From Maribacter flavus (GTDB taxonomy: Bacteria > Bacteroidota > Bacteroidia > Flavobacteriales > Flavobacteriaceae): DNA of 64,000 nt. The notes beneath the pieces were generated by a model that saw nothing but the letters and a program-made list of their open reading frames with translations, had not been told where the DNA came from and made no database searches. The position numbers were made by a program, and so were the translations under genes. Shown one piece after another: positions 22,540 to 63,573 of the stretch (position 1 is the stretch's first letter; the number at the start of each line of letters is the position of its first letter). The stretch is taken from positions 1-64,000 of the forward strand of contig NZ_VUOE01000003.1 of the NCBI RefSeq assembly GCF_008386635.1, given 5' to 3'.

Positions 22540-22545
22540 AGTACT

Positions 22546-23379: not shown

Positions 23380-23384
23380 GTACT

Positions 23385-25132: not shown

Positions 25133-25135
25133 GGT

Positions 25136-25654
25136 ATGGAAGAAAAACTGGAACTTATTTTTAAGAATGTTAACGATTGGTTGAAGTTTGCGGAAACAAA
25201 AAATGCTATGCTTCTTGGGTTTAATGGCGTAGTATTTTTTGGTATTCTCAAATTGTTTATTTGGCAAAGTTTCCCTGATGTTCTCTCCTTAAAAATTTAT
25301 TTAGTTTCAGCAATGATAATGCTTTCTGTAAGTTCACTAGGAGCGTTATTATCGTTTGTACCTAATTTGAAAATATTAAGACCTTCATTCGACTTTAAAA
25401 AGGAAAATGACAATTTTCTATACTTTGATGTTCTTCGTTGTAAAACGGCAAATGATATTATCAATAGATATAGAAATGAAAATGAGAAAATAGAAGACTA
25501 TCATAAGCATTTAGCGGAGCAAATCATAACTAATGCAACGATTACAAAAAGGAAATATGATTATTTTACTTTAGCTCTTTGGTTGAGTATCTCTTCATTT
25601 CTCACACCAATATTGGGTGCTGTTTTTTTTATCTATAACTACACAAAGCAATAA
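25136..25654 (+). CDS. pycTM: Pycsar transmembrane effector (DUF5706, PycTM-like)
   Basis: The 172-residue membrane protein matches the DUF5706 pattern of Pycsar effectors: an E-T-K-N-A segment followed by the first helix (about 24-43, LLGFNGVVFF), a second helix (53-75), a polar central region (76-125), the H-L-x-E-Q-I stretch near 125-130, and a final helix (145-167) after K-R-K-Y. In described Pycsar systems such proteins bind a cyclic pyrimidine nucleotide and damage the membrane, killing the infected cell. It follows the second cyclase by 3 bases and overlaps hsdR by one base, so its expression is tied to both. Confidence 0.85.
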   Translation: MEEKLELIFKNVNDWLKFAETKNAMLLGFNGVVFFGILKLFIWQSFPDVLSLKIYLVSAMIMLSVSSLGALLSFVPNLKILRPSFDFKKENDNFLYFDVLRCKTANDIINRYRNENEKIEDYHKHLAEQIITNATITKRKYDYFTLALWLSISSFLTPILGAVFFIYNYTKQ

Positions 25655-30841: not shown

Positions 30842-31327
30842 ATGAGTTATAAATTTCATTTTTTTTTGATTGTGGCATTTGTTCTTAGTTTGCTATCCTG
30901 TAATAAAAACGATGAAATTAAAGGAGTGGATAGAGCCAAAGCCCTATTAGGTCAATGGAAATATGCTGCTATTACAACTGATAGGGCCGTAGATATAAAT
31001 GGAGATGGAATTGTAAATATCGACTTGTATAATACACAAGAAATGCAACAATGCCTTAAAGATAATATCACTTCATTTTCAGAAAGAGGAGAGAACCAGA
31101 AGGGTTCTTATTCATTAAACGAAAATAGCCTTCCTTGTTCTGAAGATTCAGAGTTCACCAACGTTGAACAGGACAACTATGAACTTATAAATGATAATTC
31201 CATTATTCGATTTGATAACCGCAATGAAATGCGCATTGTTGAAATGACAAAAGAAAGGTTTGTTGTAGATACCGATGATGTTTTGGGAGGTAAATCGGTC
31301 ATCGTTACCATTACCTATGTGAAATAG
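30842..31327 (+). CDS. Lipocalin-like lipoprotein, hypothetical
   Basis: The 161-residue protein begins with a signal peptide and lipobox (LSLLSC, Cys about 20), predicting a lipid-anchored envelope protein. The mature part has the LxGxW start typical of lipocalin-like domains of Bacteroidetes (LLGQWKYAAI) and a predominantly beta pattern. The ligand and role are unknown. Its stop codon directly abuts the traQ stop codon on the other strand with no base between them. Confidence 0.7.
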   Translation: MSYKFHFFLIVAFVLSLLSCNKNDEIKGVDRAKALLGQWKYAAITTDRAVDINGDGIVNIDLYNTQEMQQCLKDNITSFSERGENQKGSYSLNENSLPCSEDSEFTNVEQDNYELINDNSIIRFDNRNEMRIVEMTKERFVVDTDDVLGGKSVIVTITYVK

Positions 31328-34300
31328 TTATACTCTCATTATAAGTCCAGTTGCTGTTTCACTCCATTGACCGTTTGTATCCATTACTCTTACTTCATAT
31401 TCTTGATCCAAATACTTTAGCCTTCCTTCACTAGGTTCTTCCTCTAGCTTAAAATAGCGGTTGGAACCATCACCCCTTGCATCGTCATAATTGTATAGAA
31501 AAGTATCCCATCGCCTGTCCTGACGGTTGTAAATTCGTATCTCCACTTGTTGTAAAGAAGCTCCTTGATAGGCCTCCGAGCAATTGGTTTCAAAACAGGT
31601 GAACAACAATACTTCGTAATCACAGCCGTTCAAACCACCACAATTGATGTTCCTTTTTTCACCCTTGGCAGCTACCTTGGGTTTTTTAAGGACCGTTACG
31701 GATTCACTCACCTGTCTGCTTATTCCCGTGGAATTCTCTACAGTAAAGTCAATATCAAAGGATTCTTCGGTCACGGGCATAAAGTCCATGCGCGTGGATC
31801 CATAGTCCAAGGGTATGGGTTCCCCTTCCCGATAAATTTGGTTATTGTATGTCATATACCCCGCATAGCTATCCGGGAAAGTAAAGCGCAATGTATACGT
31901 AACCTCTGGTTGATGCCCCTGGGGGGCACTGACTACAAAGGAAAATGGGAAAGGGGTGTCCTTATAAATGTTCACTGCAGGTTCGCTCACCGTCAAATCG
32001 AATTCCTCCTCATAGTCCGTGAAATCGATATTTATAGATCCTGTTTTTTGAACCCCTGAAGAGGATTGTACCGTAAATTGGATAGCATGGTTCGCTTCGG
32101 AAATTCCTGTATATCTGGCTTGAAATGTGCCGGTTGGAACAGGAATACGTTCTCCTGCAGAATAAACATTTCCGTCGTATTCAAATTGGCCCGTTTGCGA
32201 ACCGTTGGAGAAATAGAGTTCATAGGTGTCACCACCTATTCCCAACTCATTGAGGGAAAAGTTGATGGCTACCGATTCTCCTGTATAGGCTTCCAAAGGA
32301 TTTGCATTGACCGTAAAATTATAGTCCTTGGGAGATACCTCTATCGGAATAGCAACTGTTTTTTCCAGACCGGTATCATTGGCTACAATAAAGTTCAAAC
32401 CAATATTACCTGGGCTAGTAGCCTCCAAAACCCAAGTAAAGTTGGTATTTGTGATGTCATAAATGGTTCCTGCGTTTAAAGTATTCCCATTTTCATCCCG
32501 GAGAAGGGCATTTCCTGAAATAGTATAGCGAATGGTGAATGTGGAATTACCTAAGGGTTCCGATATATTAAAGTTTATATCCGTGAGTTCCCCTACGGAC
32601 AGCTCGTCCCTTTGGGCATTTCCGGAGAAGAAAAAATCCAATTGGTCAAAGGTAAGGGTGGTCTGAACAGTTTTGGTCACCCCGGCATCAGAAGCAATAC
32701 TGAAGGTAATTCCATGTGGACCCGTTTCCTTTCCCGAATATTGCAAGGTATTTTGATTGGGGTTCAGACTAAAACGTTGGCCAGGGAGATATGATGTTCC
32801 ATTGAGTATTAAATTTCCACTACGTGTTGAGGTGAAATATCCCTCATAATTGATACCTATATCCTCGGGAATTTCATTGATGTCCAAGAGTAAGTCTATC
32901 GAGGAATTTACAAAAGTAGTAGTCTGGGCCGGGGTCAAGGCCACTTCGAAATCATAGGCTTTGGCTTCTAAATCGATTACGACGGGACCTACTTCCTGAC
33001 CATAATTATCGGTAACCATAAAGGCAAGGGTATGGGATCCCACACTGCTGGGAGCATATACTAAAGCGAATGCACCCAAATCTATAGGGTAGGAGGTAGC
33101 GGTATTTAAGGAGGTACCCGAATTGTCGGTAAGCATGCCATCGCCCTCTTCTAAAATATAGGAGATAGTGTAGTCTATATTTTCCGTGTTCCCGTTGGAT
33201 TTCAGTTCGAAATTCAGCAAAGTGGGTTCACCCATATAAATGGCATTACTTTCTGCATCGCCTTGAAAGCTAAAGGGAATATTGGCCACTTCCAATTGGA
33301 CACTATCTCGTTTTGTTTGCCCGTTGGAATCCCGGACGTCAAAATAAAGTGTGCGTTTTCCCAGGGTATTGCTGGTGAAGGTATAATTGTACGATGCAGG
33401 GTCTATGGGCTCATAACCTCCCGGGGTCAGTACCCCTCCATTCTGGTTCCTCACGGTACCCGCGCCTTCACTGTCAGCCGAAAAGGAATGGGTGATTTCA
33501 TAGGTAACATTGGAATCCTCATCTTCATTGGCTAAATGAATGCGAATTCCCAAATTGGAATCTAACTCTATTTGAGAGGCCGATGCTGTAACATTCAAAC
33601 TAAAATCCAATTGTCGTACCTCCAATTCCAGTGTTTTTGATACCGTGGCACCGTCCGGGGCCGTTGCAGTCATGATTATCGTGTGATTACCCAAAGTGGT
33701 AGGTTCATATGCCAAGGCGTGGGTGCCTTTCTCAAAAGTGAAGGTCTTTCCTGGTTCGTATACAACATTGCCATGGTAGAGGGTGCCCGAACCATTTTCA
33801 ATGGTATAGGCGATTTCAAAACCAACCTCGCTCTTTGTGCTTTGGCCGCCAAGCTCGCGTATGAGTGAAAGACTTATAGGATTTTTGGAATTTATAATGT
33901 TTTCGTTGCTGCCCTTGGTTAGGATGAACGTAAAGGGGGCATATTCAATTTCATATCGAATGCCCATTTCATGTACCCTTTTATTGGAATCCCACACCTT
34001 AAAACCAATATCGTGAGTACCCGTCTCCAATGGCATATATTCATAATCCCAAGCCAGTTTGTCAATACTTAAGGTGTCCAAGGAAGATAAGGTATCACCT
34101 ACTGCGTTTAAATAATATCCCTTCCCTTTTTGATGTCGAAAAGTAGTAAAGTAGGAAACATCTAATATTTCCTTTTCGGGTGTCAATAGGAAAGAAGTCT
34201 TTCTAGGCTCAAAAACAAAACCCTTTTCTGAATGTACCACCTCCAAGGTAAAGTCGAAGTCGTCCAAGATCAATTCATCAAAATCCTTGCTACAGGCATA

Positions 34301-34366
34301 GGCAAGGAATAAAATTGAAAGTAATAGAAGTATAAACAGCAGTATGGATTGGTTGGATTTTTTCAT
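31328..34366 (-). CDS. traQ: Conjugative transfer protein TraQ family, enlarged and repetitive
   Basis: The 1012-residue lipoprotein (lipobox Cys25, LAYACS) is the last gene of the tra operon. After the anchor it consists of about eight imperfect repeats of 85-110 residues, each beginning with a strand such as D-F-x-L/F-x-V and ending with a G-x-H-x-I/L-x-F-x-V-x-D/S-x-x-G motif (DUF3872/TraQ-like Ig fold). A cysteine-containing C-terminal domain (about 915-1012) follows. TraQ of Bacteroides conjugative transposons is a small protein of under about 200 residues, so this is a large repeat expansion. It probably extends from the outer membrane and may help cell contact; that role is inference. 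Position after traO supports the name. Confidence 0.75.
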   Translation of the reverse strand: MKKSNQSILLFILLLLSILFLAYACSKDFDELILDDFDFTLEVVHSEKGFVFEPRKTSFLLTPEKEILDVSYFTTFRHQKGKGYYLNAVGDTLSSLDTLSIDKLAWDYEYMPLETGTHDIGFKVWDSNKRVHEMGIRYEIEYAPFTFILTKGSNENIINSKNPISLSLIRELGGQSTKSEVGFEIAYTIENGSGTLYHGNVVYEPGKTFTFEKGTHALAYEPTTLGNHTIIMTATAPDGATVSKTLELEVRQLDFSLNVTASASQIELDSNLGIRIHLANEDEDSNVTYEITHSFSADSEGAGTVRNQNGGVLTPGGYEPIDPASYNYTFTSNTLGKRTLYFDVRDSNGQTKRDSVQLEVANIPFSFQGDAESNAIYMGEPTLLNFELKSNGNTENIDYTISYILEEGDGMLTDNSGTSLNTATSYPIDLGAFALVYAPSSVGSHTLAFMVTDNYGQEVGPVVIDLEAKAYDFEVALTPAQTTTFVNSSIDLLLDINEIPEDIGINYEGYFTSTRSGNLILNGTSYLPGQRFSLNPNQNTLQYSGKETGPHGITFSIASDAGVTKTVQTTLTFDQLDFFFSGNAQRDELSVGELTDINFNISEPLGNSTFTIRYTISGNALLRDENGNTLNAGTIYDITNTNFTWVLEATSPGNIGLNFIVANDTGLEKTVAIPIEVSPKDYNFTVNANPLEAYTGESVAINFSLNELGIGGDTYELYFSNGSQTGQFEYDGNVYSAGERIPVPTGTFQARYTGISEANHAIQFTVQSSSGVQKTGSINIDFTDYEEEFDLTVSEPAVNIYKDTPFPFSFVVSAPQGHQPEVTYTLRFTFPDSYAGYMTYNNQIYREGEPIPLDYGSTRMDFMPVTEESFDIDFTVENSTGISRQVSESVTVLKKPKVAAKGEKRNINCGGLNGCDYEVLLFTCFETNCSEAYQGASLQQVEIRIYNRQDRRWDTFLYNYDDARGDGSNRYFKLEEEPSEGRLKYLDQEYEVRVMDTNGQWSETATGLIMRV

Positions 34367-34376: not shown

Positions 34377-34919
34377 TTAAAACAGAAAATAACGGATCCC
34401 GATGCCGACATACGGGTATAAGCTTCCGACATCGCTATTGATATGATAATATTCGTTGGCTTTAAGCAATAGGGAGATCGAGTCGCCCAAGGTGTACTCT
34501 CCTTCTATTCCCACATATAGTCCATAAAGGAACTGGCTTTTTGCATCTATAAGGGCCCCGTTATCCAAAACGGTACTGCCATTATTGATGACCTCATAAC
34601 CAAAGACCCCACCCCCACCAACATAAAGGCCATACCGCTTAAAAGTTCGCTGCTCCAATACCTTTAGAAAATAACCCGGCTGAACGGTAAAAAGTCGATA
34701 GGGAATATTGTATTCGCCTTGGTCCTCGGCAATGGCACCAAAAATGCTCAGTTGGGCATATTGATTCCGGTTGGTGTGGTGATTATACGTCGCCATGAAG
34801 CCAATCCCATCCTCCGCATAACCTCCACTAATTCCAATGGAAGAGGCGTATCGGTTTCCTTGGCTGTAGGTAAAAAGGCCAGTTAAAAGAAGTAAATAAA
34901 GGGTGTAGTTTTTCATCAC
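34377..34919 (-). CDS. traO: Conjugative transfer protein TraO
   Basis: The 180-residue protein has a signal peptide (about 1-19, ending SQG) and a beta-barrel-like pattern of alternating residues ending in an aromatic residue (GIRYFLF), as for TraO of Bacteroidetes conjugative transposons. It is probably an outer-membrane part of the transfer apparatus. Its start overlaps the end of traN by four bases. Confidence 0.88.
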   Translation of the reverse strand: MMKNYTLYLLLLTGLFTYSQGNRYASSIGISGGYAEDGIGFMATYNHHTNRNQYAQLSIFGAIAEDQGEYNIPYRLFTVQPGYFLKVLEQRTFKRYGLYVGGGGVFGYEVINNGSTVLDNGALIDAKSQFLYGLYVGIEGEYTLGDSISLLLKANEYYHINSDVGSLYPYVGIGIRYFLF

Positions 34920-35851
34920 TTAAAGGCTACAGGGTTATTGATCAGTTCATGTCCGATAGAAAGGGAAAGGTTGCGGGATCCAGAGGCCTCGTCCAATTCG
35001 ACGAGCATGGTTTTCCGCTTGTCCAAAGCAAACTTTTCAAAGACTGCGATGAAATGATTTTCACTTTTACCGGAAACAGTTTGCGGTAGCTTATACACAT
35101 ATATTGGTTCCACCTCCCGACGTTGGTTGCTAGGGCTACGGTCATATTCCGTAGCTATATGGAACTTGATGAAGTTGACGTCCAGATCCAGACCTTCGTC
35201 ATTTACAATCCGAAACTGGAAATACAAGGTTTCATCCTGATAAAAGATGCCCTTTAGCCATAGATACACTTGGTCGGCCCTGGAAAAATACCGATGGATT
35301 CGGGCCTTTTCGAACTGTAGTTTTGCGCAATTCCCTTCCAAGCTCCTTTGTTCTGAATCTATAGGAATTTCTGATGCTACCCGAATAATTGGGTTTTGTA
35401 TAGTTGGGTCGTTAACCGTTTTGGAATACCCATTAGTAGATGGATTCGATGTTTTAAGATATTTATCCATATGTGCCGAAGCCATTTCAGGAGTGATATA
35501 CCAACTCAACTGTTTGGGCTTTTCGGTAAACCTTAACATGAAATCATAAACCAATCCTGACTCCGTAATAACATGCAAATTGGTATAGGGTATTTCCTCC
35601 ATAACCAAATCATCATAGAATAGCTTCAAAATTCTTGTATGGAAGCGATTGGCCTCGCTTTGGGGAACATTGGCCACGAAACCTATTTCATTACCCACAA
35701 TGCTTTCTACAATGGTCTCCGGAAAACTGAGTATGGTCTTATATCCTCTGGAAACCTCTATGGTGTCCAAGGATTTTTTTGTAGGGTTTTGGCCATTGAT
35801 TATAAAGGTTACATGGGCCATCACAATGCATAGAAGTATAAGTTTGGTCAT
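34916..35851 (-). CDS. traN: Conjugative transfer protein TraN (DUF4138, VirB9-like)
   Basis: The 311-residue protein has a signal peptide ending near residue 20 and the beta-rich DUF4138 domain, with the SRGYKTILSFPETI segment near the N-terminus and a FRIVNDEGLDLDVNFIKF segment typical of TraN. It corresponds functionally to VirB9, part of the outer-membrane core complex with TraM. It lies 3 bases after traM and overlaps traO. Confidence 0.92.
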   Translation of the reverse strand: MTKLILLCIVMAHVTFIINGQNPTKKSLDTIEVSRGYKTILSFPETIVESIVGNEIGFVANVPQSEANRFHTRILKLFYDDLVMEEIPYTNLHVITESGLVYDFMLRFTEKPKQLSWYITPEMASAHMDKYLKTSNPSTNGYSKTVNDPTIQNPIIRVASEIPIDSEQRSLEGNCAKLQFEKARIHRYFSRADQVYLWLKGIFYQDETLYFQFRIVNDEGLDLDVNFIKFHIATEYDRSPSNQRREVEPIYVYKLPQTVSGKSENHFIAVFEKFALDKRKTMLVELDEASGSRNLSLSIGHELINNPVAFK

Positions 35852-35854
35852 AGG

Positions 35855-36871
35855 CTAGTCTTTGTTTACTAAATACAATTGGTCACCATGGACCAACAGA
35901 ATTTTATCTTGTTCCCTGTATTTCCTTTTTTGGAAGAATTGCCCAAAGGAACTTATCAGTCTTGAGGCCAATGGGCTATTGATGCTGGCTCCGGCCAATC
36001 GGGAAACTTCGTCGATTCCCTGTTTTTCCAAATCGGTTTTAAACTCCTGTAAAAGCTCCCCGGCTCTTTCGTTGTGCAATCCCTCTATACCATCTAAAGG
36101 GTCTATGGCCATCAGGTTTACCGGAACGGAAGCGATGTGTGAAACTTCCAGAACAACCCGGTTTCCTTGCAGGTTGCTATTTGCATATACGAAAGTGTTT
36201 TTGGGGAATGTATGTCCCCTCCAATGAACGGATTCATTTAATAAGAGGGTGACCCGAGATCCAGGAAGTATGAATTGGTCTTTGTAAATGCTTACGTTCC
36301 AGTGAAGTCCCTTATTGATGGCTACGGTGTCCGTAAAGGTTCGGGGCGCCGAGTAGTCCTGACTTTGGGATAAGCGTTCTTCCCGGCCACGCATCAGCAT
36401 TTGACGATAGGCCAGTTTTTCTGAAACCTCGGATTTTTTTGCTTCGTAGGGTGACATTTCCGAAGTGCCATTTTTAGTATCCTCCAATAGGGTATCATTG
36501 GTTTCATCTTCCAAATCCATGGAGAAATTGTCCAATTCCTGGAGTAATTCCTGCAAGGAATCCACCTCCTGCGGAGCCCCAACAATATTTTTTAGAACAT
36601 TGTCTTTCCTAAGTGCCTTCAAAGAATCCATTTGTGTTTTTTTGAAAAGTGATTGCGGATCCTTCACCTCAAGTTCGTTCTCTTGATTGGGCAAAAAATT
36701 ATTATAGCCTTTATTTTCCGTATCAGAGGGCGACACTTCGCGCATGGAACTTAAGCTGTTCGTGATAAAGAATAATAGAAGTAGAATTCCGATAGGAAGG
36801 GATAAGGCAAACTTTTGATGCTTGTTGATCCATGTATTGAACTCCGTAATAAGAGTGGTAATTTTCTCCAT
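35855..36871 (-). CDS. traM: Conjugative transfer protein TraM (VirB10-like)
   Basis: The 338-residue protein has a cytoplasmic N-terminus, one membrane helix (about 23-41), a long acidic/polar periplasmic linker (about 45-175) and a C-terminal domain (about 185-338) with the I-L-P-G-S-R-V-T-L-L segment typical of TraM/VirB10 proteins. It connects inner and outer membranes of the secretion channel. It is separated from traK by only 2 bases; no traL lies between them. Confidence 0.92.
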   Translation of the reverse strand: MEKITTLITEFNTWINKHQKFALSLPIGILLLLFFITNSLSSMREVSPSDTENKGYNNFLPNQENELEVKDPQSLFKKTQMDSLKALRKDNVLKNIVGAPQEVDSLQELLQELDNFSMDLEDETNDTLLEDTKNGTSEMSPYEAKKSEVSEKLAYRQMLMRGREERLSQSQDYSAPRTFTDTVAINKGLHWNVSIYKDQFILPGSRVTLLLNESVHWRGHTFPKNTFVYANSNLQGNRVVLEVSHIASVPVNLMAIDPLDGIEGLHNERAGELLQEFKTDLEKQGIDEVSRLAGASINSPLASRLISSFGQFFQKRKYREQDKILLVHGDQLYLVNKD

Positions 36872-36873: not shown

Positions 36874-37503
36874 TTATAGGTCTTGATTATCCATTACATG
36901 GAATTGGATGATTTTAAGTCCGTTCAGGTTATTGGGTGAGGATTTGGTTTCCTCCAGATAACCCTGGGTAATCAGGTTGCGATATTCCGTTCTCCCGTTT
37001 TTTAATATGCGTTGCTTTCCCGTAAATCGGAAGGCGAAAGGATACTTGGCATAATCAATTTGAATGGAATCCATTTCCACTTCAATGGAATATCCACTTT
37101 TGGCTACGTCCTCATAATAGTTTTGGTCCACCAAGCGATTGTACATCCGCTGTATGGAATGATCGCCCATGTAAAGAGCCTGCCCCTCTATATTTCTCTT
37201 TATATACCTCATATCTGCTTCTAAACCAAAAAACAGTTGATGGAAGTTCCGTATATGGCCCTCGCAAAGTATATCAACCGCTCTTTGGTAACTTCGAATG
37301 CGGACTGCGGCCAATTTTTGACCATTGTCCAACAAATAGAAATTATTCTTAGCACTTTCGTTTGTCAGGTAGGTTAGGTAGCCATTGAGGAGGGTGGCGA
37401 CAAACGTGAGTATTAAAGATAGGTATAGAACGCGATTGCTCTGACTTCTTATTTTGCTTAAATCGTTGAAAATCATGTATTTCTCGGTCATGTGATTTTT
37501 CAT
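36874..37503 (-). CDS. traK: Conjugative transfer protein TraK (VirB8-like)
   Basis: The 209-residue protein has a short cytoplasmic N-terminus, one membrane helix (about 27-48) and a periplasmic VirB8-like domain with the typical RIRSYQRAVDILCEGH segment. Met5 is an equally possible start. It is a structural part of the inner-membrane platform and lies 2 bases upstream of traM, 35 after traJ. Confidence 0.9.
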   Translation of the reverse strand: MKNHMTEKYMIFNDLSKIRSQSNRVLYLSLILTFVATLLNGYLTYLTNESAKNNFYLLDNGQKLAAVRIRSYQRAVDILCEGHIRNFHQLFFGLEADMRYIKRNIEGQALYMGDHSIQRMYNRLVDQNYYEDVAKSGYSIEVEMDSIQIDYAKYPFAFRFTGKQRILKNGRTEYRNLITQGYLEETKSSPNNLNGLKIIQFHVMDNQDL

Positions 37504-37538: not shown

Positions 37539-38465
37539 TTACTGGATCATCGTTCGAATGCCCTTGCTAAGTCCTCCCGACTTGGTATCCGCGGCAGCCT
37601 GTACGGCCTTTTTGGTATAATGTTTCGTCCTGTCTTTAAAATGATTGGCACTAACTTGCATACCCTGCACAATGAAATTCGAAAGGGTAGGTGCCTTCAG
37701 ATACACAAAAACGTTCATGATCAATAACAGGGCTGTGGTAAGGACCATTCCCAAATTGGGTTTGTCCTGATATAACAAGACCTCTATCAATCGGTCCATG
37801 AGCTGCAATAAAAAGTGGTCTATGAGATACAATATGGGTATCCAAAGACAAACGCTCATGAATTTTTGTAACCAGGCCTTCCACATTCCAGAGAAGGCAG
37901 GAATAAAGGACAGACCGATATTAAGAGGACCAAAGGCAATGAGCACAAACAGATAAACAATGGAAAGGGCCTTTATACCCACGAAGACTATGACAGAAAT
38001 TACCGAGGATATGGAGGTCGCCCCAAAGGTCATTGCCCCCATCGCCAAAGACTCTAATGCCTCCGCATCCAAATTCAATAGACTCCAATTGCCATCGGTG
38101 TCTTCCATGGCCTTGATTTGGGCCCCCATAATCTTATAATGAAGAATGTCCCAGGATAGGTCGTTGCTCTGAAAGGCTCGGCCCAAGCCTTCATAAAATT
38201 CAAAAATGGTCCAAACCATGATTTTATAATTTAACAGCAAAAGGGCCAGGGGAACCCATTTTAAATAACTTAAAAGGTCCGCCCTACGTTGCGGAATCAT
38301 AAATAAACCTATGGCCGTGATGACGATACCTATGCTTGCAAACTGTTGACCGATGCCTAGAATATGATTGGCAGCCTCAAAGGCATCCAGTACATATTGG
38401 TCGAATAATTGGTTTACGGTCGCTCTAATTCCTTGTTCAGCCATAATTCCGTTATTGTGGTTCAT
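37539..38465 (-). CDS. traJ: Conjugative transfer protein TraJ (VirB6-like)
   Basis: The 308-residue protein has about six to seven hydrophobic segments, including long ones near 45-60, 65-90, 140-170, 175-200 and 230-255, as expected for a VirB6-type channel component. Its start overlaps traI by 14 bases. A basic C-terminus follows the last membrane segment. Confidence 0.9.
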   Translation of the reverse strand: MNHNNGIMAEQGIRATVNQLFDQYVLDAFEAANHILGIGQQFASIGIVITAIGLFMIPQRRADLLSYLKWVPLALLLLNYKIMVWTIFEFYEGLGRAFQSNDLSWDILHYKIMGAQIKAMEDTDGNWSLLNLDAEALESLAMGAMTFGATSISSVISVIVFVGIKALSIVYLFVLIAFGPLNIGLSFIPAFSGMWKAWLQKFMSVCLWIPILYLIDHFLLQLMDRLIEVLLYQDKPNLGMVLTTALLLIMNVFVYLKAPTLSNFIVQGMQVSANHFKDRTKHYTKKAVQAAADTKSGGLSKGIRTMIQ

Positions 38466-39102
38466 TGAGTTGGATTATACTCCGCTTGCTTTTTCGCAAG
38501 GCATTTCTCTGGGCTAAACGGTCCCCATATTCCTGAAGTTTTTTTAGCAACACTTCCAAATCGGCATTAATATTCCTAATCTTATTTAATCGTTCGCCAG
38601 GAGGTAAAAGGGAAGGGGTGGTCAATGTATGCTGACCTTGGGTAAATAGGTTTTTTGTCGTCAAGATTACCTCGGTCACAAAGCGTAAAAATTCCTGTTT
38701 CTCCTTAGATGTTAGATAATCGTACTGTTGTACGGTCTGCCGTAGAATCCGATAGGTGTCCATTATTTGCGACTTCAAATTCAAATTCTGGCTTACATCG
38801 GAAGATTGCAGCACATAGCTGGGGGTCTTTTTCTTTGCTTCCAACTCTTCTTGAAGGATATCCTTGGAATTGGTGGTGATACGATTGTTCTTTTCCATCA
38901 ATTGGATAAGGCGCAACAGGTTTTTGTTCATGGCCTTCAATTGAATATTGTTCTGAATGAGTTGGCTATTTACCAGTCCCAAACTACCATTGGTTGCCGC
39001 GTCCGTGACGGGTATTTGGGATAGAAGGGGATACTGTAAAATGAGCATCATGAGCAGTAGTGAATTTTTCATGTGTTTATTTTTTTGTTTTGTGAAAGGC
39101 AT
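38452..39102 (-). CDS. traI: Conjugative transfer protein TraI-like (VirB5-like)
   Basis: The likely start is Met11 (base 39072), which gives a clear signal peptide (KNSLLLMMLILQYPLLSQ) and avoids overlap with traG; the longer reading gives 216 residues. The mature protein is mostly helical (about 30-205), matching TraI (DUF4141-type) of Bacteroidetes elements. Such proteins are thought to act like VirB5 at the pilus tip. The position between traG and traJ supports the name. Confidence 0.8.
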   Translation of the reverse strand: MPFTKQKNKHMKNSLLLMMLILQYPLLSQIPVTDAATNGSLGLVNSQLIQNNIQLKAMNKNLLRLIQLMEKNNRITTNSKDILQEELEAKKKTPSYVLQSSDVSQNLNLKSQIMDTYRILRQTVQQYDYLTSKEKQEFLRFVTEVILTTKNLFTQGQHTLTTPSLLPPGERLNKIRNINADLEVLLKKLQEYGDRLAQRNALRKSKRSIIQLNEPQ

Positions 39103-41614
39103 AGGCCTTTGCCGTTAACGGCCAATGTTCTTGATGTTCTTTATGTAATTGTTTGATGGTCTCACAATCATTGGGATTGGTTTCGTAGATACAGCGTTCC
39201 TCCAAAGAGGTTTCGACCCCGTACACCTTGACCCTATCCATCCAACAAATGGCCACTTCCCGAAAGGAGCGGTCTTCGGGAGTATCTTTGTTCAATGAGA
39301 GGATCAGTTGCTTTTGTTTTTCTCCTAGACCCAATAGGGATTGGATACGGTCGAAAGACGCACTAAAATCACGCATGTCCAAAAACACCTTTATATGGGA
39401 ATTGACAACTATGGCATCCCGGATAATTTCCGAGGCTACGAAGTCGTCCACCTTTTGGGAAATGAAAATGGGTTGTCCGCCCAACTTTCGGGCCATCCTG
39501 GACTGCGCATTGAAATAATGGGCAAGTTCGGGGCGTTCCAAAGCTTTCCAAGCTTCGTCTACGGCCAATATTTTATTAATGGTCAGTTTCCCCGGATCTT
39601 GCATCTTTTTATTGAAAAGGTCCATAATCATCAAAGCCGTGATAGGAAATAACAAGGCATTGTCTATCAAGCGTCCCATTTTAAAATAGACCAGTTTCTT
39701 GGCGCTTAACCCAGCCAATCTTTCATCTGCCTGATTCAATAGTTTTCCGCGGACCCCAGTACTGTGGTATTTTTGAAGTAGAAAAAGAAAGACATGTGGA
39801 TCAAATACCTCTTGGGAAATACTATGGGTACGTATCAGGGAGAAGAGCGAGGTTTTGGCAAATTCGAAAAAGCTGTCGAATTTGAAATTCCTTGTCTCTG
39901 ATTGCCATTGTGTATCATAATATGACGTGATTAAATGCTCCAATAAAGTGCTTTTTACTTCGCTTTCCTTAGGCATTCTATCTTCATTGGTAATCAGTTG
40001 CAGAAGTGTAACCAAAAACAATAGCTTGCCCTCTGTTAGTCTTTTCTTTCCAAGATCAGAAACTTGAACATCATGGGAATCCAGTAGAAATGGATTAAAT
40101 GTAAAAGGCGCATTATCCCGATGTTCTAGAATTACTCCGTTGAACACTTCGGTCAGTTTATCATAGGAATGGCCATCCTCCATAAGTATGGCTTCCCCAC
40201 CCTTACGCAGTTCCGAGGCGATATAATGATTGGTCCAATAGGACTTTCCGCCACCGGATCCCGAAGCGACCAGCATGCCACGGTTGAATATCCAATGCTT
40301 TTTTTCAGGCTCACGATACATACTTACATATAATGGGCGACCGGTGATACGATCGACCAACCGAAATTTCTCTTCAAAACGTGTAGACTCCTTGGGCCCT
40401 CCTTCAAAGTACAAGAGGGATGCGGCCATATCACTCGCCATGGGTAGAAATAGCTCTGTTGGCAATCCGATGGAATGACCGGGCACCCCTCCAAAGAATA
40501 GATTTTTTCGATCTAGGGTGTTGTACTTGGCTTGAATACGCAGTCTTTTAAAAGCGGTCGTTATACTATTGGATATACGATTCGTATTTTCTTGTCCATT
40601 GGAAATCCCCATGACGTTTAAATGATAATAGACGGCTTGTTTATGATTTTCCAGTAAGTCCCCTATGAAGCTTTGGACTTGCCCAGCATATATTTGATTG
40701 GCATCCGTAGTTTTTCCAGAGCTGAATTTCTGGAAGCGTTTTATTTTTTTTCGGAATTGTGTGAGTACCTTTTCCTGATCTGGAATATAAATGTATTGAT
40801 TGACGATATGTTCGCAGGGAATCTTAAAGCCCAATGAAAAGAGGTTCCCAATCGGAAAAGGGTTCTTGTCCGTGGTATACCCCCCATAATACTCGAAGGG
40901 TGTAATATGGTCCTTGGTAAATTGTTCAAGATTTTCAAGGGTAAAAAATTGGGCCGATCTCGTGCCGACTCGGATGTCGTTTCCACGAAAGTCTACATCC
41001 CCTAAGTTGCCGGATCTATCCAATAAGCGATAGTAACGGGCATAAAGCCCTTGGATGTCAAAGAGGTCATCATACCCTAACCGATGCACTTCTATCAGGC
41101 CCGTTTCCTTAATAAGTTTGATTACTTGATTCACTTGTGTTTTGAAAGATTCGATATATACCGAGTCCATAAACTCCTCAGGAACGGAATGGGTCAAAAA
41201 GAATTCCCGGTTTTTACTCATATGGCTATTCACCCGATTGGAATTGAGTCGTATATAATTTTTGGGCACTTTGCTGAGGTATAAATAGTGGGTGGCCTCC
41301 AAAAAGGGACGATCCTCAAAATAGTGTTCATTGGCCCGTTCCAAAAAGTCCCCTTGCAAATGCCCAGGTATAGTCCGATAGTATTCTTGGGTAAAGTAAT
41401 CCTGGCGGTGTAGCATGGAATGGGGTCCTAAAACGTGAATGATGTTGTAGAACAATTCTTGAAGTCTTACGAAGTCTTTCTTATTCAAGGTGTATGCCTC
41501 CGGAAGAACCAACTGCAATGGTATGGTCATACATCCTTTTTCCTTGGAAATCAAGGTTCCTTTTTCATATCCATAGATGGGAAAAGCATCCCATAGGTCT
41601 AGACGTTTTTCCAT
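39077..41614 (-). CDS. traG: Conjugative transfer ATPase TraG (VirB4-like)
   Basis: The 845-residue ATPase energises assembly of the secretion channel. The N-terminal VirB4-type domain is followed by Walker A GSGGGKS near residues 454-460 and Walker B LAVDEAW near 700, then the QKVDDF and DF-S motifs typical of this family. Its start overlaps the end of traF by 16 bases. Length is usual for TraG of Bacteroidetes elements. Confidence 0.95.
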   Translation of the reverse strand: MEKRLDLWDAFPIYGYEKGTLISKEKGCMTIPLQLVLPEAYTLNKKDFVRLQELFYNIIHVLGPHSMLHRQDYFTQEYYRTIPGHLQGDFLERANEHYFEDRPFLEATHYLYLSKVPKNYIRLNSNRVNSHMSKNREFFLTHSVPEEFMDSVYIESFKTQVNQVIKLIKETGLIEVHRLGYDDLFDIQGLYARYYRLLDRSGNLGDVDFRGNDIRVGTRSAQFFTLENLEQFTKDHITPFEYYGGYTTDKNPFPIGNLFSLGFKIPCEHIVNQYIYIPDQEKVLTQFRKKIKRFQKFSSGKTTDANQIYAGQVQSFIGDLLENHKQAVYYHLNVMGISNGQENTNRISNSITTAFKRLRIQAKYNTLDRKNLFFGGVPGHSIGLPTELFLPMASDMAASLLYFEGGPKESTRFEEKFRLVDRITGRPLYVSMYREPEKKHWIFNRGMLVASGSGGGKSYWTNHYIASELRKGGEAILMEDGHSYDKLTEVFNGVILEHRDNAPFTFNPFLLDSHDVQVSDLGKKRLTEGKLLFLVTLLQLITNEDRMPKESEVKSTLLEHLITSYYDTQWQSETRNFKFDSFFEFAKTSLFSLIRTHSISQEVFDPHVFLFLLQKYHSTGVRGKLLNQADERLAGLSAKKLVYFKMGRLIDNALLFPITALMIMDLFNKKMQDPGKLTINKILAVDEAWKALERPELAHYFNAQSRMARKLGGQPIFISQKVDDFVASEIIRDAIVVNSHIKVFLDMRDFSASFDRIQSLLGLGEKQKQLILSLNKDTPEDRSFREVAICWMDRVKVYGVETSLEERCIYETNPNDCETIKQLHKEHQEHWPLTAKAYAFHKTKK

Positions 41615-41922
41615 ATGGGAAGATTTTTGAACGGTGTATGCTGTTTAATTCCAGCTGGGAGTTTTCTGTCAGCTACTTTTTTAATAAATCCATAAGCTCC
41701 ATAGGTACGTGAATATGCCAATAGAGTAAGAAACAGAGCGAAAAGAAAGATGGCGATAATGGCCATCGACCAAAGCATGGGGAGAAAGGCAGATAATAAT
41801 AAGCCACCTAGGACTATGCCAATACCAAGGTAGAGTCCATAATAAATATACTTGGCTTTTAGGCCCAAATAGAATACCTCTTTCTGCAATCCCTTATGGA
41901 TTGGATAATATACTTCCTCCAT
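41599..41922 (-). CDS. traF: Conjugative transfer protein TraF (VirB3-like)
   Basis: The 107-residue protein has the VirB3/DUF4133 pattern: a short N-terminus beginning YPIHKGLQKEVFYLGLKAKY, two membrane helices (about 29-48 and 51-70) and a basic C-terminal segment. It partners TraG, whose gene it overlaps by 16 bases. Confidence 0.9.
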   Translation of the reverse strand: MEEVYYPIHKGLQKEVFYLGLKAKYIYYGLYLGIGIVLGGLLLSAFLPMLWSMAIIAIFLFALFLTLLAYSRTYGAYGFIKKVADRKLPAGIKQHTPFKNLPIWKNV

Positions 41923-41933: not shown

Positions 41934-42290
41934 TTACAAGGCAGCTATTTCCTCTCCGACGGCAATAAGGGCCAAAAAGATGGCAATACCAATCACAGTT
42001 CGTCCTAACCTGGTGGTAAGGTCGCTCTGTTGGTCTTTCATGTAGGCATAGGTAAGTCCACTAATCACTACGGCTACCCCAGCAATCATTTTGATAATGC
42101 CAATGATATGATTGGAAAGTGTTCGGGTATGTTGTTGGAATTCCTGCGTTTCTGAAATGAGCTCTTCAAATTGCCCATAAAAGGACGAATGGGAGAAAAG
42201 AAGGATTGAAAGGAGTAATAGTAACTTAGGTTTGGGGGTCGTCGGAAGGGTCGGACGAGGAATCGTCACGAACGATTTTGAGTTTTTCAT
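41934..42290 (-). CDS. traE: Conjugative transfer protein TraE (DUF4134, VirB2-like)
   Basis: The 118-residue protein has a signal region (about 23-40), a helical segment and two membrane helices (about 62-82 and 95-115), as for the pilin-like TraE of Bacteroidetes elements. The ATG start gives a 65-base overlap with the upstream gene; a GTG codon at position 8 is a possible alternative that shortens it to 44 bases. It lies 11 bases before traF. Confidence 0.88.
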   Translation of the reverse strand: MKNSKSFVTIPRPTLPTTPKPKLLLLLSILLFSHSSFYGQFEELISETQEFQQHTRTLSNHIIGIIKMIAGVAVVISGLTYAYMKDQQSDLTTRLGRTVIGIAIFLALIAVGEEIAAL

Positions 42291-56666: not shown

Positions 56667-58946
56667 ATGATTGCCCGAATATTATATCGTAAAAATGTAC
56701 AAGGGGTATTGAATTATGTACTCGATAAACCACACGCCTCTGTATTGGGAATGTGTAATATCCCAAAACAAATACTTCAATATCCCAAACTATTAAAACA
56801 GCATTTCCACTTTTTGGGGAGTAGGCACGAATCCAACAAACGATTTGTACATATAACATTGAATTTACCTCATGGTGAATTTTTAGATGATTCCAAATTT
56901 TTCAAACTGGCTGAAATCTATATGCAAGAAATGGGCTATGGAGAACAGCCCTTTGTCATTGTTCGGCATGACGACACCAAACATGAACATGTACATATCG
57001 TAAGTACCAGGGTAAAGGAATCGGGAAAACTTGTCGATAACTCCCACGACTTTTCTAGAAATCTGGCCGTTCAAAAATACTTGGAGCAAATGTTTGGTAT
57101 AACACCCTCCCCTGAATCCAAATGTAGTCAAAACCTTCCGGTCATTCGGGTACCTAAAGAAAGAAGCCTTCCCGATGACAGTCTTGGAGTACGCTTCTAC
57201 ATGCAGGATATACTCAACACCCTTTGTCAACAATACAAACCCCGATCTTTTAAGGAGTTAAAACATTTAATACAGGCGTACCATCTAGCGTTAAGTATAA
57301 CCCAAAATAAATCAGGAAGAGTGGGGGTTTCCTACGGTATAGAAAAAGTTTTGGGCTACAAATCCAGATTCATTCAAGGATACAAAGTACATCCAAACCT
57401 AAGCGGACCAAAAATGGAACGATTATTTCAAAAAAATGCCCGTTCCAAACTACTGCCTACCCATAGACAACGCTTAAAAAAGCAACTGGATACCGTGTTC
57501 AAATTATTCAAATCCATAGATCTAAAAGAACTCGAAACTATCCTAATGGAGTTTCAGAAATTGGATACTAGTTTGGAATTCAACAAAATGGGTCAGCCCA
57601 AATCGTTTACCATCTATGACAAATCGGGATATATTTTTAATCCAAGTGAAATTGATGGTCAACTCTGGTCCAGAATCCGCTCTTTTTCGTCTAACTCAAA
57701 TTCGGTTCTCGAGGTTAACGGGTCTCAATTTCAGCTGGAACTAATTAAGTGCGTCGAAGAAGTTCTTTTGAATAGACATGCAAGGATGCATACAGGTTTT
57801 GTTGTTTCAGAATTTATAGCAAGACAAACTTTTTCCGCTATTCAAAATGATTTTTGGGAACATCCAAAATTCGCCCTTTTGTCAAAGTATTGCCCAAAAG
57901 AGGGTCTCGACCTACATAAGCAATTGAATGACCAGTATGCAGGAATACAGAACAAACTGGTCCAAAAGCATCATAAAAGGGAGACCCAGTTGCTGGAATC
58001 CAAATCCCGGTTAATTTCCAAGGTCATTGAACAGTGTGTTTTTGGTTTAAATCTTACGACGGATACCCGGGGAGAACTATTCCAAAGCCTTGGATTGGCA
58101 TATGAAAATGGTTCGGTTCGGTACTTGGATTCATCAGTGCATAGCCTCTCTTTGGATATGGGAAATTTCAATACAAGGCCAAATGAAATGAAGTTTCCTT
58201 CGGCTTTTATTCGCGAACATGAAAAGGTGCTACGATTGTTGGTAGGGGCAAATCCGAAAAGCGAATCCTTGTATGCCCGTTCTTATTTTCTTCCGATGTT
58301 TTTTAAACAACTTTATTCACAAATGGCAAAAGAGGATAGAAAAACCTTTGAAACATATTCCCTACATGCTTATTGGAAGACCATAGAGCGAATGAACCAG
58401 TCATTTGAAAAATCTCCCAAGGACTATGTACATCTTTTAAATCATCAAGGTTTCCACGTTAGTGAAATAGATGGGGATATGTATTTGCATGCTATATACG
58501 GGGAAACAGATGCCACAATTCCTTTAGATCAGAAAACCAAGGCCTATCTGAACTCCCTACCTGATAAAAATATCGTATTCAAGAACCAACATACTCATAT
58601 AACCCTCTTGAAACATAGTGGTAGGGATTCCTTCGACCATCTTTGGACAGCTTACCTCATACAAAATGAATATTATAAAAAAGCGGCCTATCTCATCGTC
58701 TTCAAGGGAATTCGTCCCAATTTGGCTCCTGAGATAATGGAGTTTCATATGCAAAAGGGGCTTAAAAAAGTTATATTGGAAGTAGCGCAAAATCAGAATA
58801 ACTATAAGAACCGAAAGTTGATACTTGCAAGCGCCTATACGATTGATAGCTTATTGGGTTCCCAAAAGGGGCGAAATGAATTGGAATTTAATCCATTCAA
58901 GGACGAGTTGACAGATTATTCCAAGTTCAATAAACAAGGTCTATAA
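56667..58946 (+). CDS. mobB: Relaxase/mobilisation nuclease
   Basis: The 759-residue relaxase has an N-terminal nuclease domain (about 1-135) with the HUH-type metal motif H-D-D-T-K-H-E-H-V-H (His101, His106, His108, His110) and candidate catalytic tyrosine at 17 (LNY). The family nicks oriT and stays covalently bound to the transferred strand. The remaining 600 residues are not recognised in detail; they are rich in helices and may bind the coupling protein or oriT. It directly follows mobC. Length is greater than that of small mobilisable-plasmid relaxases but usual for flavobacterial elements. Confidence 0.92.
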   Translation: MIARILYRKNVQGVLNYVLDKPHASVLGMCNIPKQILQYPKLLKQHFHFLGSRHESNKRFVHITLNLPHGEFLDDSKFFKLAEIYMQEMGYGEQPFVIVRHDDTKHEHVHIVSTRVKESGKLVDNSHDFSRNLAVQKYLEQMFGITPSPESKCSQNLPVIRVPKERSLPDDSLGVRFYMQDILNTLCQQYKPRSFKELKHLIQAYHLALSITQNKSGRVGVSYGIEKVLGYKSRFIQGYKVHPNLSGPKMERLFQKNARSKLLPTHRQRLKKQLDTVFKLFKSIDLKELETILMEFQKLDTSLEFNKMGQPKSFTIYDKSGYIFNPSEIDGQLWSRIRSFSSNSNSVLEVNGSQFQLELIKCVEEVLLNRHARMHTGFVVSEFIARQTFSAIQNDFWEHPKFALLSKYCPKEGLDLHKQLNDQYAGIQNKLVQKHHKRETQLLESKSRLISKVIEQCVFGLNLTTDTRGELFQSLGLAYENGSVRYLDSSVHSLSLDMGNFNTRPNEMKFPSAFIREHEKVLRLLVGANPKSESLYARSYFLPMFFKQLYSQMAKEDRKTFETYSLHAYWKTIERMNQSFEKSPKDYVHLLNHQGFHVSEIDGDMYLHAIYGETDATIPLDQKTKAYLNSLPDKNIVFKNQHTHITLLKHSGRDSFDHLWTAYLIQNEYYKKAAYLIVFKGIRPNLAPEIMEFHMQKGLKKVILEVAQNQNNYKNRKLILASAYTIDSLLGSQKGRNELEFNPFKDELTDYSKFNKQGL

Positions 58947-60652: not shown

Positions 60653-61054
60653 CTATATCTGATTTTTAAATGTGGTCAAGGCGGTTACTATCGAGGACTC
60701 CAATTCCTTATAATGTTGCTGCACATCATCTTGGTAGACCAGATTGGCTCCTACATTCATTTTAGGGATAAACTCATTGTCTGGGGACATTACCCAAATG
60801 GGATTGTACCCCAAGGAATAATAATACAACAAAAGCTTGATGGTATTAAAAGACAAGGGGCCTCGTTCGATGTTGGTAATGGTTTGATAGTCCACTCCCA
60901 GGCGTTCGGCCATGGCCTTCCTCGAAAATGGGCTTTGACGCTTATCCTCAGTAGGATCCTTTTCAATGAGTTCCTCCCGGATTTGTTGTAAGCGTTCGCC
61001 TATAAAATAAAAGTCCTTGGCCTTGCCGTTAAATATATCTTCCATTGTTTTCAT
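60653..61054 (-). CDS. XRE family helix-turn-helix regulator
   Basis: The 133-residue protein has a Cro/CI-type helix-turn-helix (about 40-80, with SRKAMAERLGVDYQTITNIERG) followed by a C-terminal helical part. Its start overlaps the end of the coupling-protein gene by four bases, so the regulator is translated from the same mRNA and may control the mobilisation genes. Confidence 0.9.
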   Translation of the reverse strand: MKTMEDIFNGKAKDFYFIGERLQQIREELIEKDPTEDKRQSPFSRKAMAERLGVDYQTITNIERGPLSFNTIKLLLYYYSLGYNPIWVMSPDNEFIPKMNVGANLVYQDDVQQHYKELESSIVTALTTFKNQI

Positions 61055-63573
61055 GTTTCGACGATTTCTACGGGATAGCTGGAATATGGTTCGCTGGCTT
61101 GTAATAAAGAGCCAAAAACAAACAAATCCTCCTTCAATTTTGGTTTTCTATCCCCAAAAGTAGGTTTTTCTTGTTTACCCGTATACCGGTCCAAGAGCTC
61201 CTCCGGATTCAAATGGGTGTCGGTATTTCCGGAAGGCTCCGTGGAACTTTGGTTTTCTTTGGTGTTATGGTCCATGCCGACCACCTTTTCCGTATCAAAT
61301 ACGCCCGATGATGGGGATGTCCCATGGTTCTTGACATACTCCTTTTGGACCAATTCCTCGACATCTTCCAAAATACTATGGAAATTTGCGTCCAACACCC
61401 GATTTTTTTCCTTGTTTTTGATGTACCGTGCTATCAGTGATTTTAATACTGTTTTCAATAGGTGGTCTTCCTTCGGATTATCTTGGATACAATGGGACAG
61501 CTCCGTACGATAATCAAACAGGCCATAGTCCTTGACCAAATTAATAAAGTCCCATTGTTCAATCTCAGAGATATAAGAATTTGCGGCAATTGTCGGAATG
61601 TGGTCATGATAGAACCCATAATAATCGGAAATATGCCAATCCAATCGGTATAAGACATTATAAAATTGAAGGTCCTCCAAATCCTGGATTCGTTGCTGCA
61701 GTTGTTCCTCGAAGTCCTCGGGTACGAAGGTGCGAATGGCAGGTAAGGCATATTTCTTCTGTACCCGCTTTGAAGCCAAATTAGGTCGTAACAATCCATA
61801 ACAGAGTTTTTGGGGTATGGGATGTTCAAAGGTATCGGCTACCATCCCTCCAAAATATCCAGTGGACATTCCGGAAATCTTGCTCTTGGGCAATAAGTCC
61901 ATCATTTCTGAACTGATGTTCATGGTGGTATCCTGCTTGGACAGGGTATGCGCTTTTTTTGACTGATGGATACGCCCAAAGATCTCGCTGATACGCCGAG
62001 CTGTTTCCCCTTTGGCGGCACCACTGAATATATTGGCACAGTTGTCAAAAATAACATCGGCTAATTCCCTGCCATAATCAGCTATCAATTGACTGATACT
62101 CTGTATGCCCAAGACTGTGGCCACCAAATGGGAGCGACCGGTATCGATGATTTTTCTCAGTCCCATAATAAATACCGTGGGTAGCTCGTCCAATAGCAAA
62201 CCGCAGGGTCGGCAACCGGGTCGATTGATCAATTGCAGGGTCTTGTTGATATATAGACCAATAGGTGCGGCATAGATTTCAGAACGATTGGGGTTGTTTT
62301 GGATACAGACGATCTTGGGTTGCTCTGGGTTATTAATGTCCAATTGAAAATCATTTCCCGTCATCACATAGAATATTTCCTTATTGGCCAACATAGATAA
62401 GGAAATCTGCGCACTTGCAGTTTGTCCCGCCAATTGCTGTCCGGCTTCCCGCTCCAAGGCATCCTTAAAGGGTATCATCAGGTTTCTGACTTCGATATCT
62501 TCCAACATGATGGAAAGCAAATACTCAATGTTGACGGTGGATAGTATAATGACATGGGGTAGGGTGCAAATATTTTTACCATATTCCTCGGATTTGCGCT
62601 TCAAATACCAGATAAGTCCCGACACAAAACTGATGGCACTCCGGGAGAAGAAATCGTTTCTCTTGATCCATTCCTTATTGAGGTTTTTCATAATGACGGT
62701 AGCGGCATCCGAAGCATCCATTTGACTTTTTAATAGGTAAGGATCCAATGGATTGCATCGATGGGATTGTTCCACATTGTCAAAATTTAATACGTAAAAT
62801 TTTGAATAGGGCGCTGTTTGGTTTTCCTTCCCATAGGTTTGCTTTTCCCGTAACCAATAGTTGTAAGCAATGGTACTAAGGGTATCAAACTTAAAATCAT
62901 ACAATAGCAGGGTAAATTTTTTTTGAATCAACTGTTCCAAGATTTCCTCGATGACGGCAAAGGACTTCCCGCTTCCCGGGGTTCCTACGACCAACAGGCC
63001 CCGAAACAGATTGATGAAATTAATCCATCCCCTACGTAGTAGCCCTTTATGGTAATAGTCATACGGTATATTGACAGAGTAAGGGGTGTCGATACGCTGT
63101 TCCATTTGTTGGAAGGTCTCGTTTTCAACATTAAATGGGTCTATCTCGGATAGGGGTTCGTAAGGTACTACCTGAAAAAGGTGGAGGGTACCCCAAAGAC
63201 TTAACACAAAACCCAAGAAATAACAAGCAATGGTAACGATAATTATGGGCCGTTCGGATGCTATAAGAGATTGTGATAGCAGGAGAAGTCCAACCCCCAA
63301 ACACCATAGGAATAAACCTTTTGATATGGTTTTGCCAGGTACTTTTTTAGGGTAGTAGCACATAACGGCCCCAATAACGGTCAATAATAAAAACAGGCGG
63401 TTAAAGTAAGGTCGTTCCAAAGGGCCAAAACGTTTCAAAAAACTATACACCCATTGTAAACCTGGTACGTTCGCCTCTTGCTGGATGGTAGGATAATGAT
63501 CTAAAAAGCCAATCGATAGAAAACAGATGACCGAGATGAACATGGCGGAAAAGGCAATTTTTTGGGATTCCAT
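61051..63573 (-). CDS. Type IV coupling protein (VirD4/TraG-type) of the conjugation system
   Basis: The 840-residue protein has four hydrophobic segments in its first 140 residues, then a nucleotide-binding domain with Walker A GTPGSGKS near 198-205 and Walker B LLLDELPT near 455. The AAA-like core (about 180-600) is followed by a polar tail (about 690-840). It links the relaxosome to the secretion channel and drives DNA through it. It follows the gene at 63589-63969 by 15 bases and overlaps the XRE regulator gene. Confidence 0.95.
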   Translation of the reverse strand: MESQKIAFSAMFISVICFLSIGFLDHYPTIQQEANVPGLQWVYSFLKRFGPLERPYFNRLFLLLTVIGAVMCYYPKKVPGKTISKGLFLWCLGVGLLLLSQSLIASERPIIIVTIACYFLGFVLSLWGTLHLFQVVPYEPLSEIDPFNVENETFQQMEQRIDTPYSVNIPYDYYHKGLLRRGWINFINLFRGLLVVGTPGSGKSFAVIEEILEQLIQKKFTLLLYDFKFDTLSTIAYNYWLREKQTYGKENQTAPYSKFYVLNFDNVEQSHRCNPLDPYLLKSQMDASDAATVIMKNLNKEWIKRNDFFSRSAISFVSGLIWYLKRKSEEYGKNICTLPHVIILSTVNIEYLLSIMLEDIEVRNLMIPFKDALEREAGQQLAGQTASAQISLSMLANKEIFYVMTGNDFQLDINNPEQPKIVCIQNNPNRSEIYAAPIGLYINKTLQLINRPGCRPCGLLLDELPTVFIMGLRKIIDTGRSHLVATVLGIQSISQLIADYGRELADVIFDNCANIFSGAAKGETARRISEIFGRIHQSKKAHTLSKQDTTMNISSEMMDLLPKSKISGMSTGYFGGMVADTFEHPIPQKLCYGLLRPNLASKRVQKKYALPAIRTFVPEDFEEQLQQRIQDLEDLQFYNVLYRLDWHISDYYGFYHDHIPTIAANSYISEIEQWDFINLVKDYGLFDYRTELSHCIQDNPKEDHLLKTVLKSLIARYIKNKEKNRVLDANFHSILEDVEELVQKEYVKNHGTSPSSGVFDTEKVVGMDHNTKENQSSTEPSGNTDTHLNPEELLDRYTGKQEKPTFGDRKPKLKEDLFVFGSLLQASEPYSSYPVEIVET

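Follow-up and report, generated by a model that had tools for sequence, protein, structure and literature searches.

A modular giant TraQ lipoprotein in a Maribacter flavus tra operon, and TraN-TraO-TraQ genes beside type VI secretion loci

Results

The DNA analysed here is a 64,000-nt stretch of Maribacter flavus (assembly GCF_008386635.1, contig NZ_VUOE01000003.1, positions 1-64,000; hereafter the window), in which a gene at 31328..34366 on the minus strand encodes a giant TraQ lipoprotein of 1012 aa. The gene starts with ATG, its frame is open throughout, and it is the last gene of a co-oriented tra operon, adjoining traO. Comparison with PF12988 (TraQ_transposon) confirmed the protein as a member of this family (149.4 bits against a cut-off of 27, E = 7.5e-44, six stretches over threshold); with eight domains and a tip, it falls outside the class of single-domain classic TraQs of about 150 aa. 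Since all four plasmid records that we found call the giant "TraQ conjugal transfer family protein", the TraQ family itself is known; the new points are the modular giant form and a TraN-TraO-TraQ trio shared with loci of the type VI secretion system (T6SS).

An earlier note on this DNA had described about eight tandem immunoglobulin (Ig)-like repeats anchored by a lipobox and ending in a cysteine-bearing tip, and this anatomy was recovered in full. The signal peptide (residues 1-24; 34295..34366, minus strand as for all parts of this gene; helix at residues 7-24 in the model) ends in the lipobox LAYAC, where LAYA precedes C25, lipidated according to the motif. The mature protein starts with the export-signal-like CSKDFDE (34274..34294), annotated from the motif frequency in relatives and from published signals. 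Residues 26-895 align as eight domains of about 103-124 aa, the base and R2-R8, and a repeat profile built from the 1012-aa protein also counted eight.

Each domain was compared by hhalign with a profile of 16 classic TraQs (141-167 aa), and the earlier idea that the repeats are related to TraQ held directly for half of them. The base (residues 26-149; 33920..34291) is the counterpart of a whole classic TraQ (95% over 109 columns, and PDB 4lba in structure), and direct matches were also obtained for R4, the most TraQ-like repeat (361-467; 32966..33286; 98%, with 50.6 bits to PF12988), R6 (575-680; 32327..32644; 91%) and R7 (681-786; 32009..32326; 91%, 28.1 bits). The match was weak or failed for R5 (468-574; 32645..32965; 63%), R8 (787-895; 31682..32008; 24%), R2 (150-252; 33611..33919; 19%) and R3 (253-360; 33287..33610; 3%); the link of these four to the family runs through the other repeats. 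R3 is linked to it also by a 39-bit PF12988 match over 33293-33634, and R2, R5 and R8 are delimited by the alignment and the repeat profile, R2 by the model as well. Recent tandem duplication at the DNA level was ruled out, as traQ contains just three two-copy matches of 20-22 nt; judged by their sequences, the repeats are old, protein-level repeats.

An AlphaFold2 model of the full protein, built with 31 relatives, forms an all-beta string after the signal helix (mean predicted local distance difference test score, pLDDT, 83.4), with a predicted TM-score of 0.34, so that the arrangement of the domains is not fixed in it. In a VIA-align comparison the solved TraQ structures 2l3b (Z 13.9, root-mean-square deviation, rmsd, 6.2) and 4lba (Z 13.9) ranked first, and the base domain matched the family fold of 4lba with an rmsd of 2.4 over 104 residues (model residues 36-139). 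The models, VIA-align and hhalign agree on the stalk-plus-tip architecture that the earlier note had foreseen.

The tip (residues 896-1012; 31331..31681) is a separate domain that in hhalign shows no match to classic TraQ (2%) or to the repeats (at most 14%). Modelled alone it reached a pLDDT of 94.3, and its structural rows were mostly of the FnIII type (Z 7.0-8.5, rmsd about 3), a common arrangement; Foldseek with the tip model returned no match at E<=0.001 (best E 5.6e-3). The tip carries four cysteines (909, 915, 924 and 929), of which the third and fourth are both missing in the distant relatives L164 and L166 while the first two are kept; because the third and fourth are lost together, the four cysteines suggest two disulphides. 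A phage origin of the tip was rejected on the absence of any match at E<=1e-5 in a phage collection, and nothing supported the idea that the 1012-aa protein delivers a toxin with its tip, which looks FnIII-like. Separately, one giant outside a tra operon (L095:9083-12559) has weak C-terminal Hint-like matches below the Pfam cut-off (PT-HINT, E = 0.00043; Hom_end_hint, E = 1.8e-6).

Relatives were collected in two sets. A genome scan with two tip motifs gave 54 loci of the type IV secretion system (T4SS) type, a choice that guarantees the presence of the tip in this set and biases it toward tip conservation; a second set of 15 T4SS-type loci was recruited by PF12988 alone, in genomes that partially overlap those of the first set (in one of the 15, L074, only TraO, TraQ and a lipocalin-like gene lie within the fetched 20 kb). 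PF12988, scanned with at most ten candidates scored per genome, was found in 29 of the 397 genomes of the host's family, and giant TraQs (matching frame of at least 350 aa) in 26. In a sample of the phylum it was found in 14 of 395 genomes, 11 of which have small TraQs at 160-208 bits, and open frames at complete matches measured 143-181 aa, in line with the small size that the earlier note had ascribed to classic TraQ.

The length of the giants changes in steps. The frame is full-length in 51/54 tip-motif-recruited loci; the other three (L114, L133 and L162, with traQ frames shortened to 200, 747 and 336 aa) were excluded from length and motif counts. The 51 proteins fall into classes of 582-585 aa (n=2), 893-902 aa (n=3), 1012-1014 aa (n=24), 1115-1140 aa (n=20) and 1326 aa (n=2), which by the repeat profile have 4, 7, 8, 9 and 11 domains, respectively. 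The 582-aa form retains the base, R2, R7, R8 and the tip, with R3-R6 unaligned; as both ends are kept, the steps in length correspond to whole domains gained or lost between them. The closest named relative, in Maribacter litopenaei, is 97% identical, with a traQ frame that is open for only 200 aa.

The tip is well conserved among these proteins. Of the 15 relatives recruited by PF12988, 13 have it as the domain that comes closest to its counterpart in the window, and two lack it. Against 15 eight-domain relatives recruited by the tip motifs, the window tip averages 71% identity and the other TraQ domains 40-66%; the same 15 loci give 66% for TraO, 61% for TraG, 60% for TraJ, 54% for the lipocalin-like protein encoded next to traQ, 47.5% for TraN and 47% for TraM. 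Toward the 9-, 4- and 7-domain forms the tip is again the highest-scoring domain (71, 66 and 50%, respectively). A tip kept so constant points to a partner that is itself conserved more than to an adhesin that diversifies.

Some giants sit outside tra operons, and the TraN-TraO-TraQ trio recurs beside T6SS genes. TssC, of a family that we take as the marker of the Bacteroidota T6SS type, was found in 43 of the 397 genomes, and in eight of these at least one giant TraQ lies at a distance of 3.4-13.5 kb from TssC; giants and TssC are co-oriented in 8/8, and TraN and TraO precede the giants in all eight. These sets (L071:5249-18998, L078:5242-11350, L079:2876-13794, and also in L072, L073, L075, L085 and L094) contain one to four giants in a row, four of them in L071; a TssC or Hcp gene lies within the fetched 20 kb in 7/8 loci, the TssC of L072 being just outside. 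The genes tested are true family members: TraN matched DUF4138 at 9.9e-13 and 3.5e-13 (two tested), TraO its family at 4.8e-17 to 5.2e-21 (three tested), and neighbours of the trio TssD at 2.7e-49 and TssC at 8.9e-234 and 1.7e-232. At these loci the TraQ region occupies the N-terminus of the giants, and PKD, Big, HYR, cadherin-like or DUF5018 domains make up the remainder. TssC is present in 17/29 genomes with PF12988 as compared to 26/368 others (Fisher p = 3e-11, not corrected for kinship); the other nine genomes with both have none of the listed giants on the TssC contig at a distance of 20 kb or less. TraN, TraO, TraQ and DUF4138 had no occurrence in a word search of the accessible part of the T6SSiii membrane-complex paper (PMC10781749).

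The operon that ends in traQ runs on the minus strand. TraO (34377..34919; PF10626, E = 5.9e-21), a family that we take to be a barrel, is followed upstream by TraN (DUF4138; 34916..35851; PF13595 1.2e-23, TIGR03780 1.7e-23), TraM (35855..36871; PF12508 2.2e-26; TIGR03779), TraK (36874..37503; TIGR03781 3.6e-35, with no Pfam match) and a VirB6-like TraJ (37539..38465; TIGR03782 2.4e-08 and TrbL 8e-05, both below cut-off), of which all four fall under the NCBIfam equivalog cut-offs. Next come a protein with no match among Pfam and NCBIfam profiles that is conserved in 13/15 T4SS-type loci (38452..39102), the VirB4-like ATPase TraG (39077..41614; TIGR03783, 406.9 bits against a cut-off of 261.55), a DUF4133 protein that is presumably VirB3-like (41599..41922; PF13571 1.9e-11) and a VirB2/TrbC pilin-like protein (41934..42290; PF04956 2.1e-06, 28.3 bits against 27.9). 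A relaxase (56667..58946, plus strand; PF03432 at 56784-57098, 80.6 bits) and a type IV coupling protein (61051..63573, minus strand; PF12696 at 61867-62208, 59.1 bits) lie nearby. The region therefore has the composition of a Bacteroidota element of the conjugative transposon type, namely VirB4-like TraG, TraJ, TraK, TraM, TraN and TraO with a relaxase and a coupling protein nearby. A T4SS without mating genes was first suspected because no relaxase adjoins the operon, and was ruled out by the relaxase and the coupling protein about 14 and about 19 kb past its pilin end. A comparable tra unit is found on the 64.7-kb Arenibacter algicola plasmid pSMS7, which is typed as mobilizable with a MOBB relaxase and has a 159-aa hypothetical gene convergent on traQ. 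Given the operon, the relaxase, the coupling protein and the pSMS7 unit, the giant traQ is very probably part of a conjugative element.

Discussion

The giant TraQ, being long, modular and fitted with a tip of its own, is a testable candidate for what holds recipients to Bacteroidota donors during conjugation; a literature search on TraQ returned no paper whose title concerns its function. On balance, and with moderate confidence, we favour the reading that the giant TraQ is a lipid-anchored surface stalk-and-tip for mating contact, its exposure and binding being deduced rather than seen. The stalk would stand on the outer face of the outer membrane of the donor. The base, which is the sole domain of small TraQs, would seat the protein at the outer-membrane TraN/TraO part. 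The seven further copies of the base-type domain would act as a spacer of roughly 30 nm, an Ig domain being about 4 nm long. The putatively disulphide-stapled, FnIII-like tip would touch the partner, either holding the mating cells or registering contact. Stalk length would be adjustable through the gain or loss of whole domains, with base and tip staying constant. The earlier note had suggested an adhesin that works in mating contact, a candidate role with which both the setting in a tra operon and the repeated presence of the trio at T6SS loci agree.

Placement on the surface is suggested by the start of the mature protein. In PMC5080379, C-X-K-(D/E)2-X is described as the surface export signal of Capnocytophaga canimorsus and SDDFE as that of Flavobacterium johnsoniae; CSKDFDE is similar, and not identical, to both. 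K or Q at +3 with D or E at +4 occurs in 48/51 intact T4SS-type giants as compared to 5/77 background lipobox open reading frames (ORFs), in 21/25 non-T4SS giants with a lipobox (26 examined) and in 10/16 classic TraQs. At least two acidic residues at +2 to +6 are found in 47/51 T4SS-type giants, 15/16 classic TraQs and 17/77 background ORFs. For comparison, mature starts of SusD-like proteins in this genome include CSDDYL, CSDNYL, CNDEFL and CTDLDD. From this motif we infer that the giant TraQ may lie on the cell surface. Of the surface stalk proposed in the earlier note, the stalk was found again in the models, and what speaks for the surface is the resemblance of CSKDFDE to these signals.

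Several observations weigh against this reading. Position +5 of CSKDFDE is F, where the optimum given for C. canimorsus is D or E, and 0/25 giants outside T4SS operons have two or more acidic residues at +2 to +6, which speaks against a uniform export signal. Conservation is not unique to the tip: in an all-against-all comparison of the 16 eight-domain TraQs, R3 (77%) and R4 (75%) equal it (75%), and TraK, at 70% identity to that of the window in the 15 relatives above, is as close. A conserved tip also goes against a classical adhesin, whose tip would be expected to diversify. L074 and L093 encode forms of 2052-2062 aa with 18 domains and different ends that lack the window-type tip. Other Bacteroidota elements make do with small TraQs that have no stalk, meaning that conjugation in itself does not require one. 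Finally, the VIA-align rows that follow the solved TraQs (antigen I/II, Z 11.7; FdeC, 11.5; invasin, 11.1) are interspersed with transglutaminases, complement and other Ig-bearing proteins that are unrelated, and show no function because Ig stacks are common.

Among the closest known systems, the TraQ of Bacteroides (PF12988/DUF3872; PDB 2L3B, 2L7Q and 4LBA) has the same family, fold, lipoprotein signal and position after traO, but it is a single domain of about 150 aa without stalk or tip. The multi-Ig adhesins (antigen I/II C-terminus, FdeC, invasin) have stacked Ig-like domains as in the giant, although no sequence relation to it was shown; they use other anchors and have known ligands.

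One alternative, which we regard as rather unlikely, is that the stalk has a structural role, extending the outer-membrane core or a pilus-like conduit as a scaffold or sheath, with a tip that binds a T4SS part and not the recipient. Tip, R3 and R4 are indeed conserved about as much as the machine proteins TraK, TraO and TraG, the base corresponds to small TraQ, and the operon has a TrbC/VirB2-like pilin gene. However, a domain number of 4-18 would be odd for part of a conduit of fixed size, and in T6SS loci related N-termini carry unrelated surface-type domains.

The gene that faces traQ raises another alternative. A 161-aa lipocalin-like lipoprotein is encoded at 30842..31327 on the plus strand, its stop codon abutting that of traQ; its Lipocalin_4 match is below cut-off (E 0.0032; 18.7 bits against 22.4), and among 22 relatives 9 match Lipocalin_4 (best 9.3e-6) and 15 DUF5004 (best 8.8e-5) at E<=0.1. 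It has a largely conserved loop, DINGDGxVNIDL, which we take to be EF-hand/dockerin-like. The tip might form a recognition pair with this protein, sensing that of a neighbouring cell and so causing entry exclusion, in which transfer is blocked if the recipient already has the element; we find this proposal distinctly doubtful. In its favour, the gene lies convergent downstream of traQ in 15/15 PF12988-recruited and 54/54 tip-motif-recruited T4SS-type loci (in 51/54 of the latter, 57 nt or less separate its aligned end from traQ), and the mature N-terminus is acidic in 48/51 of the proteins with a lipobox. Its pairwise distances, moreover, track the tip best: r was 0.83 as compared to 0.49 for TraG with 35 of 44 complete sequences (near-duplicates removed), and 0.69 as compared to 0.33 with 33 (divergent L164 and L166 also dropped). 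In the smaller set the partial r of the tip, given TraG, TraN, TraO, base, R2, R7 and R8, was 0.45 (p = 0.002), with values near zero for R8 (0.03) and TraO (-0.03). Yet within traQ the tip lies closest to the lipocalin-like gene, so that shared recombination tracts or linkage could mimic the signal, the base also correlates (partial r 0.34, p = 0.002), and the permutation p values ignore phylogeny. A conserved tip, besides, fits many exclusion groups poorly, and in one genome (L088/L161) a 512-aa ORF separates the two genes.

A periplasmic orientation, with the giant bridging that compartment as a spacer, is improbable: eight Ig domains of about 4 nm each would come near the width of the periplasm and surface export has the motif as its support, but 4-18 domains do not fit a single gap and the export-like motif is present.

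Returning to the surface stalk, its parts may belong to something wider. Tentatively, and as a possibility less probable than the stalk itself, TraN-TraO-TraQ could be a portable outer-membrane contact module, the base serving as socket, the stalk as reach and exchangeable tips as target choice, that is plugged into two injection machines unrelated to each other, the conjugative T4SS and the Bacteroidota T6SS, for reaching and holding cells nearby; the lipocalin-like protein would then be the cognate partner of the tip in conjugation. By its presence next to T6SS sheath genes the trio would connect the two machines, both contact-dependent, by way of a single outer-membrane part; it would also give a clue to the role of small TraQ in elements of gut Bacteroides. 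TssNQOPR of T6SSiii is likewise the envelope part of a contact-dependent machine, and two TssP domains are PKD-like according to PMC10781749; unlike TssNQOPR as described there, the flavobacterial TraN-TraO-TraQ genes have their homologues in conjugation.

Other loci and neighbouring genes

Further arrangements of these genes occur at other loci. L077:9481-14478 and L078:5242-9600 are paralogous giants of one genome with near-identical N-termini and differing later domains, as if their C-terminal parts had been exchanged. L056:3244-20000 has TraM, TraN, TraO, TraQ (1118 aa) and lipocalin-like genes close to the family, with TraG (9e-17) and TraK (2e-4) distant from those of other loci; the outer-membrane end was apparently exchanged between T4SS backbones here, travelling apart from the inner machine. 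In L067:6681-16809, sets of genes that are presumably ExbB/ExbD/TonB-like are followed downstream by two pairs of TraO and TraQ (457 and 2420 aa).

In the window, carbohydrate genes (a ThuA/GSDH protein, GH20 and GH2) lie at 43721-55221 between the tra operon and the relaxase, and the type I restriction-modification genes HsdM and HsdR with a Fic-domain gene lie at 16728-28863.

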